Below are positions 29,257 to 33,631 of a stretch of DNA of 64,000 nucleotides, piece after piece. This stretch comes from Alteriqipengyuania lutimaris (GTDB lineage Bacteria; Pseudomonadota; Alphaproteobacteria; Sphingomonadales; Sphingomonadaceae), in contig NZ_QRBB01000001.1 of the NCBI RefSeq assembly GCF_003363135.1, forward strand, positions 186,001-250,000, given 5' to 3'. The translations under genes were made by a program, and so were the position numbers. Positions within the stretch are counted from its first letter, which is position 1; each line of letters starts with the position of its first letter. The notes beneath the pieces are model-generated. The model was not told the DNA's origin. It saw only the letters and a program-made list of their open reading frames with translations, and made no database searches.

Positions 29257-29682
29257 ATGCCGTCCGCCGGCACACCTGCACAAAAGTCCCGCAAGATCGG
29301 CCCGGTGCTGGTGGTCGAGGACGATGCCGCGCTGGCGCTGGCGGTCGAGGACGCTCTCCTCGATGCCGGAGCGCGATCGGTATCGATCGCCTCCACCACG
29401 CAGCAGGCGATCGACACACTGCGCGACGACCGCTTCGAGACGGTGATCCTCGACGTCCATCTGGCCGATCGCGGCGACGGGTGGGCGATCGCCGAACTGG
29501 TGCGCGCGCTTGGCGCAGGAGGGCCGAAGATCATCTTCGCCACCGGATCGCCCGACGCCATTCCCGCCGATATCGCCGATCTTGGCCCGGTCCTCGCCAA
29601 GCCTTACGATTTCAACGAACTGGTCGCGCATGTCCGCGCGCGCGGTCGCATGTCGCTGTTTTCCCGCTTGCGGCGCGATTGA
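29257..29682 (+). CDS. Single-domain response regulator, stress-locus associated
   Basis: 141 residues: a receiver domain without output domain. Acidic pocket in LVVEDDAAL, phospho-acceptor Asp in VILDVHLADRG, conserved Thr in IIFATGSP, Lys in LAKPYD. The FATG segment resembles the FATGUY group of single-domain regulators, to which SdrG of Sphingomonas (a general stress response component) belongs; here the following aromatic is replaced by Pro. It is preceded by an exact EcfG promoter and sits beside phyR. A role as phosphate sink or relay between PhyK-type kinases and PhyR is inferred. Confidence 0.88.
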   Translation: MPSAGTPAQKSRKIGPVLVVEDDAALALAVEDALLDAGARSVSIASTTQQAIDTLRDDRFETVILDVHLADRGDGWAIAELVRALGAGGPKIIFATGSPDAIPADIADLGPVLAKPYDFNELVAHVRARGRMSLFSRLRRD

Positions 29683-29739: not shown

Positions 29740-29832
29740 AAAAAAAGGCCTTCGATCCGCGTCGAGCGGAACGAAGGCCTTCGGGATCGTATCACCGGCC
29801 GCTTGGACGGGAGGGGGGTCTCGGCGGTGACA
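29740..29832 (-). ncRNA. gsrN: Candidate GsrN-type general stress sRNA
   Basis: The minus strand has a textbook terminator, AAGGCCTTCG/CGAAGGCCTT (29745-29781) followed by seven U, but no minus-strand gene upstream that would need it. Immediately upstream on that strand is a 5' hairpin, TCACCG/CGGTGA (29792-29830, plus CCG/CGG), whose loop carries CCCCCCTCCC (29818-29809). An EcfG-like promoter precedes it. The resulting RNA would be about 90-95 nt with an exposed C-rich loop and a 3' terminator. This is the architecture described for Caulobacter GsrN, which I recall being reported as encoded near the core stress regulators in several alphaproteobacteria. The 5' end is estimated from the promoter. 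Confidence 0.62.
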
Positions 29833-29839
29833 TAGAGGA

Positions 29840-29864
29840 AATGCCCCGGCAAAGAGGCGGTTCC
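29840..29864 (-). promoter_or_regulatory. EcfG-like promoter of candidate sRNA
   Basis: On the minus strand GGAAC (29864-29860), 16 nt, CATT (29843-29840): one mismatch from the GGAAC-N16-CGTT consensus, correctly placed about 8 nt upstream of the hairpin that would start the sRNA. Confidence 0.5.
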
Positions 29865-29940: not shown

Positions 29941-29965
29941 GGAACCGGCTCTGGTGCCACACGTT
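29941..29965 (+). promoter_or_regulatory. EcfG-type promoter of phyR
   Basis: GGAAC (29941-29945), 16 nt, CGTT (29962-29965): exact consensus, 31 nt before the phyR ATG. Predicts positive feedback of EcfG on phyR. Confidence 0.85.
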
Positions 29966-29996: not shown

Positions 29997-30797
29997 ATGT
30001 CGATTGGTGAAAATGTCGCGGCGAACCTTCCTTACCTTCGCCGCTATGCGCGCGCGTTGACCGGGTCGCAGCAAACCGGAGATGCCTTCGTACGGGCCAC
30101 GCTGGAAGCGGCGCTGGCGGACGACGACCTGAAGGCGTCGCTGGAAGGCGGGCGGGTCCCGCTGTACCGCGCGTTCAACAAGGTCTGGTCGAGCGCCTAT
30201 CTCGAAGTCTCCGATCACGGCGCCGATGCCGACCTGCCGGGCGACGTCGAGGCGGACCGCCTGCAGACCGTAACCCCGCTCAATCGCCAGGCGCTCCTGC
30301 TGACCACGCTCGAGGACTTCACGATCGAGCAGTCGGCCGAAATCATGGAAAAGTCCTCCGAAGAGGTCGAAAAGATGGTGCAGGACGCGATTGCGGAAAT
30401 CGATCGCGAATCCGCTACCAGCGTGCTCATCATCGAAGACGAGCCGCTGATCTCGATGCAACTCGAAGATCTGGTCCGCGGCCTCGGCCACGATATCTGC
30501 GGCACCGCCGCCACGCGCACGCAGGCGCAGGAAGTCGTCGCGCAGAAGACGCCGGGCCTCGTGCTGGCCGATATCCAGCTCGCCGACGGGTCTTCGGGCC
30601 TCGACGCGGTCGACGATATCCTGAGCATCGGCAGCGTGCCGGTGATCTTCATCACCGCCTATCCGGAACGGCTGCTGACCGGCGACCGGCCGGAGCCGAC
30701 CTACTTGGTGACCAAGCCCTTCCAGGAAGCGACCGTACGCGCAGCGATCAGTCAGGCGCTGTTCTTCAACGCCAACCGGGACAGCGCGACCGCCTGA
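29997..30797 (+). CDS. phyR: General stress response anti-anti-sigma regulator PhyR
   Basis: 266 residues, ATG 29997. The N-terminal 130 residues are an ECF-sigma-like domain (NLPYLRRYARALTGSQQTGDAFVRATLEAAL; QALLLTTLEDFTIEQSAEIMEKSSEEVEKMV) without DNA-binding determinants. The C-terminal receiver has VLIIEDEPLI, phospho-Asp in LVLADIQLADG, Thr in VIFITAYPE and Lys in VTKPF. When phosphorylated it mimics sigma and sequesters NepR, freeing EcfG. Its partners nepR, ecfG and a PhyK-like kinase lie within 3.6 kb, and it has its own EcfG promoter. Length and domain order match the family. Confidence 0.97.
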   Translation: MSIGENVAANLPYLRRYARALTGSQQTGDAFVRATLEAALADDDLKASLEGGRVPLYRAFNKVWSSAYLEVSDHGADADLPGDVEADRLQTVTPLNRQALLLTTLEDFTIEQSAEIMEKSSEEVEKMVQDAIAEIDRESATSVLIIEDEPLISMQLEDLVRGLGHDICGTAATRTQAQEVVAQKTPGLVLADIQLADGSSGLDAVDDILSIGSVPVIFITAYPERLLTGDRPEPTYLVTKPFQEATVRAAISQALFFNANRDSATA

Positions 30798-30941: not shown

Positions 30942-32627
30942 TCAGTTGGTCGGCGCGGCTTCGCTCAGCTGGTTGCGGCGCGCGCGCAGCTGGAACTCGG
31001 CGCGTTTGCGCACGGGCACCTGCAGCACGCAACGCACGCCCTCGCGCGCGAAGCTGAGATCGACCGGATGCTTGAGCTCGTGTGCGACGATCTTCTCGAT
31101 CAGTTCGGTCCCGAACCCGCGCGTCCGATCCTGCGAGACCGGCGGGCCGTTCGATTCCTGCCACACGACCTCGACCAGGTCGTCGTTCAAGCGCTTCCAG
31201 TCGACGCGCAGCCTGCCGCCCTCGACCGACAGGGCGCCATATTTCGATGCATTGGTCGCAAGCTCATGAATCGCCAGGCCGAAGGACAGCGCGTCGTTGG
31301 GCGCCAGCTCCACCCCCGGCCCCTTCAGCTCGAGCATGGCATCGACCGAATTGGTATAGGGGGCGAGTTCGGCCTCCAGCACCGCCTGCAGCGGGGTCGT
31401 GCCCCATTCCGACTGGGTCAGCAGGTCGTGCGTGGCGGACAGCGCGCGGATGCGACCGTCCAGACCGCTCGCGAAATCCTCGAGCGAAGTGGCGCGGCGC
31501 CGGGTCAGCGCGACGATCGACAGCACGTTGGCGAGCGTATTTTTGACGCGGTGGTTGAGTTCGCGGGTCAGCGAATTGCGGATCGAATTCTGCTCGGCAT
31601 AGAAATCGAGCGCCGACTGGTCCTCGTGCGCCTGCTGGGTCAGCAACCGGGCCACTAGCATCGAAAGGCTGGCCACCGCGATTCCGAACAGAAGCGTGAT
31701 CATCGACAGCAGCGACAGGGCATCGCCGCGCGCCGATTCGACCTCCACGGTCATCGGACGGTCGGCCAGGCTGACCTCGATCCGCGTGACATTGCCGGTC
31801 ATGCGCGAGGGCGTATGCGAAGCGACGAGATTGCCGGGCGAAGGTTCGCCGTCGTACAGGCGTACCCCGCGCTCCCCGATCAGCTCGCGGGTCAGCACGG
31901 AGTCGAGAAATTCCTGAGAACTGAAGGGGCTGTAGACGAAGCCGCGGATCAGCTCGCCGCCCGTCCCCGGTTCGAACACCGGCATGTACACGATGAAACC
32001 CCGGCGCTCCGCGTCCTGGCCCGACACCAGTTCTACCGGACCGCTGGCAGTCGGGCGCCCCGTCCGGATCGCTTCCTGCATGGCCGAGCGGCGGTCCGCT
32101 TCCGAATACATGTTGAATCCCCGCGCGCGCGCCATGCGATCGGCCATCGGTTCGAAAAAGGTCACCGGCACGGCGAAGTTGCTTTGCCGGTCGGGCAGCG
32201 GCTCGATCGTGAAGGCCTCGCCGGTTTCCGATGTCACCATTGCTTCGAACGCGCCGATCTGGCCGCGCGGGACGATCGGGCTCCAGCCGATTCCCATGGA
32301 CCCGCGATAATCCGCGTCTAGCCGCAGTTCGGTGGCGAAGCGCCGGAAAAGGTCGGCGGGCACGCGATCGAGCGTGCTGATCAGCGCCGCCCCCGCGATG
32401 AGGTAGGAGCCGCTGGTATTGACCCTGCGATCGAGCGAGGACGCGATGACCTGCGCCGTTTCGCCGAGCACCGCCTGTTCGCGGCGACGCTCCCCCCGTT
32501 CGATCGCGAAGACGCTGAGCGCGGTGATGGCGGTGATGAGCAGGAAAATGATCACGGGCACGGCCCGGGGATAATGGATCAGCCAGCGCCGTACTCGACG
32601 TGTAGGAAGGGCCGTTTCGGACGCCAC
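30942..32627 (-). CDS. phyK: PhyK-like sensor histidine kinase (CHASE, HWE/HisKA_2)
   Basis: 561 residues from GTG 32627 (GGAG 7 nt upstream). An N-terminal transmembrane helix (about 22-42), a periplasmic CHASE-type sensor (about 75-290), a second helix (about 305-330), then a HisKA_2/HWE dimerisation domain with phospho-His in LTRELNHRVKNTLANVLSIV and an ATPase domain with HELATNASKYGALS and RTRGFGTELIEKIV. It lies convergent to phyR and divergent from nepR-ecfG, the classical position of PhyK. It should phosphorylate PhyR (or the nearby single-domain regulator) on stress. The sensed signal is unknown. Confidence 0.92.
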   Translation of the reverse strand: MASETALPTRRVRRWLIHYPRAVPVIIFLLITAITALSVFAIERGERRREQAVLGETAQVIASSLDRRVNTSGSYLIAGAALISTLDRVPADLFRRFATELRLDADYRGSMGIGWSPIVPRGQIGAFEAMVTSETGEAFTIEPLPDRQSNFAVPVTFFEPMADRMARARGFNMYSEADRRSAMQEAIRTGRPTASGPVELVSGQDAERRGFIVYMPVFEPGTGGELIRGFVYSPFSSQEFLDSVLTRELIGERGVRLYDGEPSPGNLVASHTPSRMTGNVTRIEVSLADRPMTVEVESARGDALSLLSMITLLFGIAVASLSMLVARLLTQQAHEDQSALDFYAEQNSIRNSLTRELNHRVKNTLANVLSIVALTRRRATSLEDFASGLDGRIRALSATHDLLTQSEWGTTPLQAVLEAELAPYTNSVDAMLELKGPGVELAPNDALSFGLAIHELATNASKYGALSVEGGRLRVDWKRLNDDLVEVVWQESNGPPVSQDRTRGFGTELIEKIVAHELKHPVDLSFAREGVRCVLQVPVRKRAEFQLRARRNQLSEAAPTN

Positions 32628-32795: not shown

Positions 32796-33014
32796 ATGGA
32801 CGACAAACACAATCCGGATGCTAAGCATGCGCCTCACAGGCCTACGGGCGAAGGCAGGGACGGCATGAATCAACCGCAATGGGCGGATAGCCTGCGCAAT
32901 TTGTACGACTCGGTCGTCGACGAACCGATTCCCGACAGCTTCAAGGATTTGCTCGACCAGTTCGACGAACCCAAGAAGGATGGGCCGAAGCAGGACGGGG
33001 GTGATGCAACGTGA
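32796..33014 (+). CDS. nepR: Anti-sigma factor NepR
   Basis: 72 residues, ATG 32796. Small and polar with the NepR core WADSLRNLYDSVVDEPIPDSFKDLLDQF, which forms the two helices clamping EcfG or PhyR. The flanks are charged and disordered, as in the family; ATG 32865 (MNQPQW) is a possible shorter start. Its stop overlaps the ecfG GTG by 4 nt (GTGA at 33011), so anti-sigma and sigma are translationally coupled. Confidence 0.95.
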   Translation: MDDKHNPDAKHAPHRPTGEGRDGMNQPQWADSLRNLYDSVVDEPIPDSFKDLLDQFDEPKKDGPKQDGGDAT

Positions 33015-33631
33015 GTTCGCATCCCGCACCCGCCGCCGATCCGGTCGAGTTCAAGCGTGAACTGACCGGTGTGGTCCCGCACCTGCGCGCCTTCGCGCGC
33101 GGGCTTTGCGGCCGCCCCGACATGGCCGACGACCTCGTGCAGGAAACGCTGATGAAGGCGTGGGCCGCGCAGGAGCGGTTCGAGCCGGGCACCAGCATGC
33201 GCGCATGGACCTTCGTGATCCTGCGCAATGCCTATCTCACCGACATGCGCCGCAACCGCTTCCGCGGCGAATATGACGAGAACGTTGCTGAGCGTATCCT
33301 GACCGCGCCTGCGGGCCAGGAGGAACCGATCCACCTGTCCGACATGCACCGTGCGCTGCTGACGCTCCCGCCCGAACGGCGCGAGGCGCTGCTGCTGGTG
33401 GGTGCGGGCGGTTTCTCTTACGAGGAAGCGGCCAATATCTGCGGCTGCGCGGTCGGCACGATCAAGAGCCGCGTGGGCCGTGCCCGCGCCGCGCTCAACG
33501 CGATGCTCGCCGATGGCGACATTCCCCAGCGCTCGATCGACGACGAAACCGCGCACCGCGCGATCCTCGAAGAGCTGGACGATGTCGCAGCGGGCAAGGG
33601 CCTTGCCGAACCGACCAATGGGCGCACCTGA
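33011..33631 (+). CDS. ecfG: General stress response ECF sigma factor EcfG
   Basis: 206 residues from GTG 33011. Region 2 (about 20-85) has LRAFARGLCGRPDMADDLVQETLMKAW and RNAYLTDMRRNRFR; region 4 (about 115-175) has LLTLPPERREALLLVGAGGFSYEEAANICGCAVGTIKSRVGRAR. The 30-residue tail after region 4 is typical. It directs RNA polymerase to GGAAC-N16/17-CGTT promoters, three exact examples of which occur in this locus. Released from NepR by phosphorylated PhyR. Confidence 0.96.
   Translation: MSSHPAPAADPVEFKRELTGVVPHLRAFARGLCGRPDMADDLVQETLMKAWAAQERFEPGTSMRAWTFVILRNAYLTDMRRNRFRGEYDENVAERILTAPAGQEEPIHLSDMHRALLTLPPERREALLLVGAGGFSYEEAANICGCAVGTIKSRVGRARAALNAMLADGDIPQRSIDDETAHRAILEELDDVAAGKGLAEPTNGRT

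Follow-up and report, generated by a model that had tools for sequence, protein, structure and literature searches.

The window analysed here is a stretch of 64,000 nucleotides from Alteriqipengyuania lutimaris in which genes of the general stress response are neighbours. The gene phyR (29997..30797, plus strand), recognized by the Pfam domains PhyR_sigma2, PhyR_sigma-like and Response_reg, is preceded on the same strand by an EcfG-type promoter motif, GGAAC-N16-CGTT (29941..29965). Beyond it lie, on the minus strand, a gene for an HWE histidine kinase with a CHASE domain (30942..32627, assigned with Pfam), which we take to be phyP, and, on the plus strand, nepR for the anti-sigma factor (32796..33014, Pfam NepR) and a sigma factor gene (33011..33631, Pfam Sigma70_r2 and Sigma70_r4_2) that is called ecfG for its place beside nepR. 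On the other side of phyR, at 29257-29682, Pfam indicates a single-domain response regulator, which could belong to the stress pathway and whose homologues are found here in many of the genomes that carry the RNA described below.

Between this regulator gene and phyR, the minus strand holds a predicted small RNA of about 90 nt (29740..29833, called from sequence and fold, with its 3' end in a T tract), which is convergent with the regulator gene. Its promoter motif is of the EcfG type, with GGAAC as the -35 element (29860..29864) and, after a 16-nt spacer, CATT as the -10 element (29840..29843). CATT is a plausible EcfG -10 element because one EcfG-dependent gene (#1442) in the Sphingomonas melonis Fr1 table, in the part of PMC6599016 available to us, has the box GGAAC-N16-CATT. 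The RNA would start 6 to 9 nt past the -10 element. A first hairpin, which begins about 7 nt past CATT and ends about 45 nt after the presumed RNA start, is made up of the 5' arm UGUCACCGCCG (29822..29832), the 20-nt C-rich loop AGACCCCCCUCCCGUCCAAG (29802..29821) and the 3' arm CGGC-C-GGUGAUA with one bulged base (29790..29801). The loop, which is likely the recognition site, holds a run of six C at 29818-29813, inside CCCCCCTCCC. It is followed by the single-stranded linker CGAUCCCG (29782..29789), an intrinsic terminator hairpin (29745..29781) and a T7 tail (29740..29746) whose first two T also pair within the terminator stem. A sequence-only reading of this DNA had described the promoter, the hairpin, the loop and the terminator with its T7 tail on the minus strand, and all of them are found where it had placed them. 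It had also called the RNA antisense in orientation to phyR, which has to be corrected, since the two are divergent and do not overlap.

The evidence from the single sequence is mixed, because GGAAC-N15-18-CRTT is found six times in the window when 2.7 matches are expected, a count reached by 5 of 100 shuffles, and because a simple terminator scan of the window reported two sites, both elsewhere, and missed the hairpin of the RNA. The 94-nt minus strand folds with -44.3 kcal/mol (z -5.4), and none of 200 shuffles was equally stable; the 201-nt region has a single match in its own genome. It is conservation across genomes, and not these single-sequence signals, that lifts the candidate RNA above chance. 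With a 151-nt region as the query, blastn (E<=0.01) gave matches in 92 of 199 family genomes. We read 84 strong loci, including that of the window, and four of the 15 weak matches (L086-L088 and, later, L238); no phyR match was present at L086-L088, the three weak loci read for it. In the alignment of the 84 strong loci, mean conservation is 100% for GGAAC, 96% for CATT, 96% for the 5' arm, 97.5% for the loop, 92% for the 3' arm, 95.5% for the linker and 68% for the terminator, with 54% for the promoter spacer and 38% and 35% for the flanks; recruitment by blastn with the RNA biases this set to conserved copies, a bias from which the comparison with PhyR below is free. The exact box GGAAC-N16-CATT is present in 73 of the 84 loci and a near variant in nine, with CGTAT instead in two (L014 and L015), and a clear T tract is missing in two loci (L053 and L083). 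A phyR homologue is divergent from the RNA in all 84, with a gap between match starts of 101-289 or 929-1093 nt, and of 1695 nt in L075. In L101 and L112, a gene for a Crp-type regulator (Pfam cNMP_binding and HTH_Crp_2) lies between the RNA and phyR on the strand of the RNA, which retains its own EcfG-type box despite the intervening gene. By eye, many loci also have an UP-element-like A-tract about 10-15 nt ahead of GGAAC (upstream of 29864 on the minus strand of the window).

Pairing was assessed in a MAFFT alignment of 81 RNAs, which were the RNAs of the 84 loci without L077 (identical RNA) and without L053 and L083 (untrimmed 3' ends). In this alignment, 94.5% of cells are paired and both sides change at 12 of 24 pairs; sliding of the pairing partner lowers the paired cells to 31.5-51.1%, and in 500 shuffles the alignment was not equalled on any of the five measures. 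Covariation is strong in the terminator, where both-side changes occur at 10 of 13 pairs, 91.5% of cells are paired and the variable upper stem shows compensatory changes. It is modest in the first hairpin (98.1% of cells paired), with both-side changes at 2 of 11 pairs, in one sequence each. The second pair of this hairpin is GU in 38 RNAs, AU in 26 and GC in 17, and the single bulge position of the 3' arm varies or is absent. The run of C between the arms of the first helix has a length of 5, 6, 7 or 8 in 4, 42, 34 and 1 of the 81 RNAs, respectively. An alignment of phyR upstream regions had been proposed beforehand, with lost conservation as the outcome that would count against the candidate; what we found are covarying stems and a conserved loop. 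The stand-alone RNA gene of about 90 nt predicted by that first reading, with an EcfG-type promoter, a C-rich 5' loop and a 3' terminator, is conserved in close and distant relatives.

The distribution of the RNA follows that of PhyR. A covariance model of the RNA (R1), searched in 249 family genomes at E<=0.01, matched 108 of them, six only weakly (<30 bits) and 102 at >=62 bits. A PhyR protein search of the same 249 genomes gave a match in 224 (E<=1e-30); the top 102 matches score at least 332 bits with 67-100% identity, and the next, among the matches listed, at most 310 bits with at most 62% identity. The 102 genomes with a strong RNA match are exactly the 102 genomes with the best PhyR matches. 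Both the RNA and the PhyR match are missing in three genomes of carrier genera (G135, 77% complete; G138, 92%; and G172, 99%). Carriers span about 40 genera of the sample, and the PhyR proteins of two Citromicrobium MAGs (L132 and L172) are 95-96% identical to that of the window. Of the 249 genomes, 100 contain the loop core CCCCCTCCCGTCCAA, all but two of them in a single copy. All but one of these genomes (99) belong to the 102; the exception is G608, whose match has no promoter box and no like hairpin and was taken as chance, and three members of the 102 (G073, G188 and G588) lack the exact core. R1 also matched G009 at a second place, which is a plain palindromic terminator. In a sample of 385 genomes of the class, R1 was strong in four family genomes and weak in six others. 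These six matches outside the family (E<=0.01; best 39.2 bits, L093) are terminator-like hairpins in which the C-rich loop is absent, and their stretches gave no phyR match (neighbours were listed for L093 only). In the order sample of 196 genomes, the 52 genomes matched by R1 at E<=0.001 all belong to the family, three of them with a weak match.

The exact pattern CCCCCCTCCCGTCCAAVCGG matched at least 119 stretches, from Novosphingobium, Porphyrobacter, Qipengyuania, Altererythrobacter, Croceicoccus, Tsuneonella, Pelagerythrobacter, Citromicrobium, Blastomonas marina and others, and, within Erythrobacter, from E. vulgaris, E. sanguineus, E. rubeus, E. fulvus, E. cryptus and E. donghaensis; E. 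litoralis is not among the matches listed for this pattern. A divergent phyR is present in 106 of these at least 119 stretches, at 156-357, 977-1062 or 1436-1588 nt, and in 12 of the remaining 13 the stretch ends, on the phyR side, no more than 960 nt from the RNA. The last one, L119 from an Anaerolinea MAG, lacks both the promoter box and phyR and was taken as chance. GGAAC-N15-18-[CG]NTT is found in 110 stretches and GGAAC with another -10 element in seven; L195 is cut off and L119 has none. In one Sphingomonadales MAG (L175), the RNA stands beside a PhyR of just 60% identity, under the 67% of the 249-genome sample.

The known RNA with which the candidate was compared in the first place is GsrN, which is described in the accessible part of PMC5869019 as an RNA of about 100 nt that depends on SigT/EcfG, exposes a 5' C6 loop and ends in an intrinsic terminator. 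Its C6 loop pairs with G-rich mRNA sites, for example in the katG leader, cleavage yields a stable 5' isoform of 51-54 nt, and an effect of Hfq and a stress survival phenotype are reported (PMC5869019). GsrN typically lies near the stress-response locus, with C. crescentus as the stated exception, and Erythrobacter litoralis figures as an outgroup without an apparent gsrN-like gene (PMC5869019, Figure 9 legend). The RNA described here is like GsrN of Caulobacter and other Caulobacteraceae in its length of about 100 nt, EcfG/SigT promoter, six-C 5' loop, terminator and stress locus, and its conserved linker CGAUCCCG would be a natural place for cleavage. It is unlike GsrN in that the GsrN target sites given in the available part of PMC5869019 resemble UCGGGGGGCG and do not match the complement of CCCUCCCGUCCAAG, so that the C run alone is in common; the katG leader site of GsrN is not kept in the carriers tested either. 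R1 gave no convincing match outside the family in the 385 class genomes, a sample in which Caulobacteraceae were not singled out. The reading as GsrN-type is partly supported, as a likeness at the level of design that does not imply membership by common descent. Of the label GsrN-type, which the sequence-only reading had given to the RNA, the design (promoter, C-rich loop, terminator and locus) holds, and the letters of the loop and the katG site do not. Putative GsrN-like RNAs of Rhizobium, Sinorhizobium and Brucella are alike in locus position, EcfG box and C-rich 5' loop, but those have transcriptome evidence too, whereas ours is known from sequence and theirs were compared by their description in the accessible part of PMC5869019.

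At gathering cut-offs, Rfam 15 gave three tRNAs only in the window, and its families were rejected for the RNA, where just sub-threshold C-rich or terminator matches occur. The highest score, 38 bits for ctRNA_p42d (cut-off 50, E 6e-5), falls on the terminator of L030. The family ar14, with C-rich anti-Shine-Dalgarno-like loops, scored 22.2 and 26.7 bits, below its cut-off of 58.8. The actinobacterial 6C RNA (RF01066) also has C-rich loops on stable hairpins, but it belongs to other bacteria and reached 31 bits in one of five loci (cut-off 47, E 1.1). The Caulobacter sRNA CC1840 (RF01521) aligned weakly over its full length, with 20.7 bits in the window and 30.8 bits in L072 (cut-off 50); it was absent from the E<=10 matches when 20 loci, including the window's own copy (L002), were scanned, and across the class it was found in 0 of 385 genomes. 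RNAs with CCUCCUCCC loops presumably are those named cuckoo and CcsR, and an assignment to the cuckoo type was rejected, as that type requires several CCUCCUCCC-loop hairpins and we found one hairpin, with the loop CCCCCCUCCC. SmelA075 and SmelA099, as described in the available part of PMC3927594, likewise have anti-Shine-Dalgarno-like C-rich hairpin loops on more variable stems, but they carry three or four CCUCCUCCC hairpins, compared to one here, with the loop CCCCCCUCCC.

That the locus contains a real EcfG-linked small RNA is very likely. We consider it probable that this small regulatory RNA acts in trans in the general stress response, is controlled by EcfG and works like GsrN, and a GsrN-like action through base pairing, taken on its own, is only a shade less probable. 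The promoter motif suggests that expression depends on EcfG. Under stress, EcfG would be freed from NepR through PhyR and would then transcribe the RNA from a promoter of its own that points away from phyR. The predicted 90-nt transcript would consist of a 5' hairpin showing the fixed C-rich loop, the conserved linker and the terminator hairpin with its U tail, and the loop may pair with G-rich mRNA leaders, altering their translation or stability in the way of the C6 loop of Caulobacter GsrN. In favour of such an RNA, conservation is limited to the promoter boxes and the RNA, the stems covary and presence tracks PhyR; against it count the lack of a standout target, the little covariation of the first hairpin and a -10 element that is mostly CATT and not CGTT.

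A search for G-rich leaders complementary to the loop had been proposed; among 225 gene starts common to G000 and G162 (about 13% of the window's own genome), no loop partner stood out. The mean pairing energy of the real loop was -12.6 kcal/mol, weaker than in all 15 shuffled loops, which ranged from -13.2 to -15.7, and gene-start regions may avoid long G runs. The gene katG is present in the own genome. In 7 of 9 carriers whose katG locus was fetched (five further katG carriers are outside this count), no G5 run occurs within 260 nt ahead of the profile start; in the other two, it lies inside the coding start (G004) or 249 nt upstream (G019). Two katG genomes of the same genus, outside the RNA-tested set, have no G5 run and a run inside the coding start, respectively. 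As the leader G-site is not kept, katG was rejected and is probably not a target. The stress-locus genes were rejected as well, as the leaders of nepR, ecfG, phyR, the kinase gene and the neighbouring regulator gene showed no clear pairing with the loop; the phyR leader pairing beats its shuffles in 46 of 72 cases. Perfect GGAGGGGGG sites number 20 in the own genome, where the reversed pattern has 28. The RNA gene itself accounts for one, and two precede possible starts by 17 and 23 nt (L255 and L258). At L258:1500-1526, also in the own genome, GGGGAGGGGGG could pair with part of the loop; a 260-aa frame, comF-like by eye, may start 23 nt further on.

Alternatively, the RNA could be real and controlled by EcfG while the loop serves to sequester, or to dock on, a single conserved partner, which might be a protein or an abundant RNA, rather than to pair with many mRNAs; we consider this unlikely, though the most probable of the alternatives. 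With its 20 nt and near-complete conservation in the 84 loci, the loop exceeds the usual length of a pairing seed and might bind a protein, and neither an enrichment of complementary gene starts nor a kept katG leader site speaks for pairing. Moreover, the loop is retained in a second copy in G080 (L238:2465-2556, minus strand), which has a different stem, its own terminator and the box GGAAC-N16-CGTA and adjoins a gene with an integrase core domain, so loop and promoter motif may form a mobile module. It is kept in part at a second site in G191 (L296, minus strand), as CCCCCCTCCCGTCCAA about 40 nt behind GGAAC-N16-CATT. However, a C run that varies between 5 and 8 C is easier to reconcile with pairing than with a rigid protein site, and the target test spanned only the above 13% of one genome and one relative. 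It is doubtful, to nearly the same degree, that the 20-nt loop is the whole functional module, with stems, terminator, distance to phyR and genomic site free to vary, and that a single partner makes the RNA a stress-induced decoy or docking RNA. If true, such an RNA would give the PhyR-EcfG switch a new kind of output.

It is considerably less probable that the conserved element acts in cis, as a minus-strand leader or attenuator or as a terminator at the boundary, insulating phyR from the convergent gene. The site in G191 does lie ahead of a possible gene start and looks leader-like, with CCCCCCTCCCGTCCAAAG and a G5 run further down. In G731 and G759, where PhyR is 60-61% identical, a diverged RNA (L342:1593-1697 and L343:2526-2629; 36 bits with R1) behind GGAAC-N16-CGTT is flanked by phyR and an ecfG-like gene, whose strand it shares, and has no T tract; its arms are UAUCACCAC and GUGGUGA, its loop has C5 + C6 or C4 + C6, and its linker is CGAUCCCG. 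These two loci look as if they derive from another lineage. In the window, however, the opposing gene at 29257-29682 occupies the space behind the terminator, the promoter boxes, loop and linker are more conserved than the terminator hairpin, and a boundary terminator does not need a near-invariant loop. A short peptide gene, for which a frame of 13 codons from an ATG at 29833-29831 is open in the window sequence, can practically be dismissed because the C-run length is variable and shifts the frame, and the frame is not kept (ATG in 27 and the stop after 13 codons in 28 of 81), while there would be no room for a ribosome site after the presumed transcript start. A chance GGAAC with chance hairpins next to it, an idea suggested by a motif frequency in the window of just about twice that in shuffles, is ruled out for practical purposes by the blastn matches, the covariation, the co-occurrence with PhyR and the 84-locus alignment.

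The trans-acting RNA preferred here is a candidate stress-type small RNA beside phyR in a group of marine and soil bacteria for which the literature searched describes none. That literature, which omits most subscription journals and in which PMC5869019 alone is of direct relevance, contained no description of a phyR-adjacent RNA, and the words non-coding, noncoding and intergenic are absent from the accessible part of PMC6599016. The candidate would widen the reach of post-transcriptional control in the general stress response to other Erythrobacter species, to Novosphingobium and to about 40 genera of the sample. Its co-occurrence with phyR, usual single copy and short length make deletion and rescue simple, and shared descent versus repeated origin of C-rich stress RNAs across orders becomes testable. 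With a wider model (R2), no diverged copies were found in 24 genomes of sister genera, a set that had no positive control, and in 20 sister phyR upstream stretches nothing scored better than matches with E 0.1 and 0.6. By tblastn, the neighbour divergent from phyR in L219, a stretch from an RNA-less sister genome, is a NepR-like frame; L221 has a similar appearance by eye. One possible history is that, when nepR-ecfG moved, the divergent promoter was taken over by the RNA. On the strand of the RNA and at about the same distance, 14 of the 20 sister stretches carry an EcfG-like box, mostly GGAAC-N16-TGTT.
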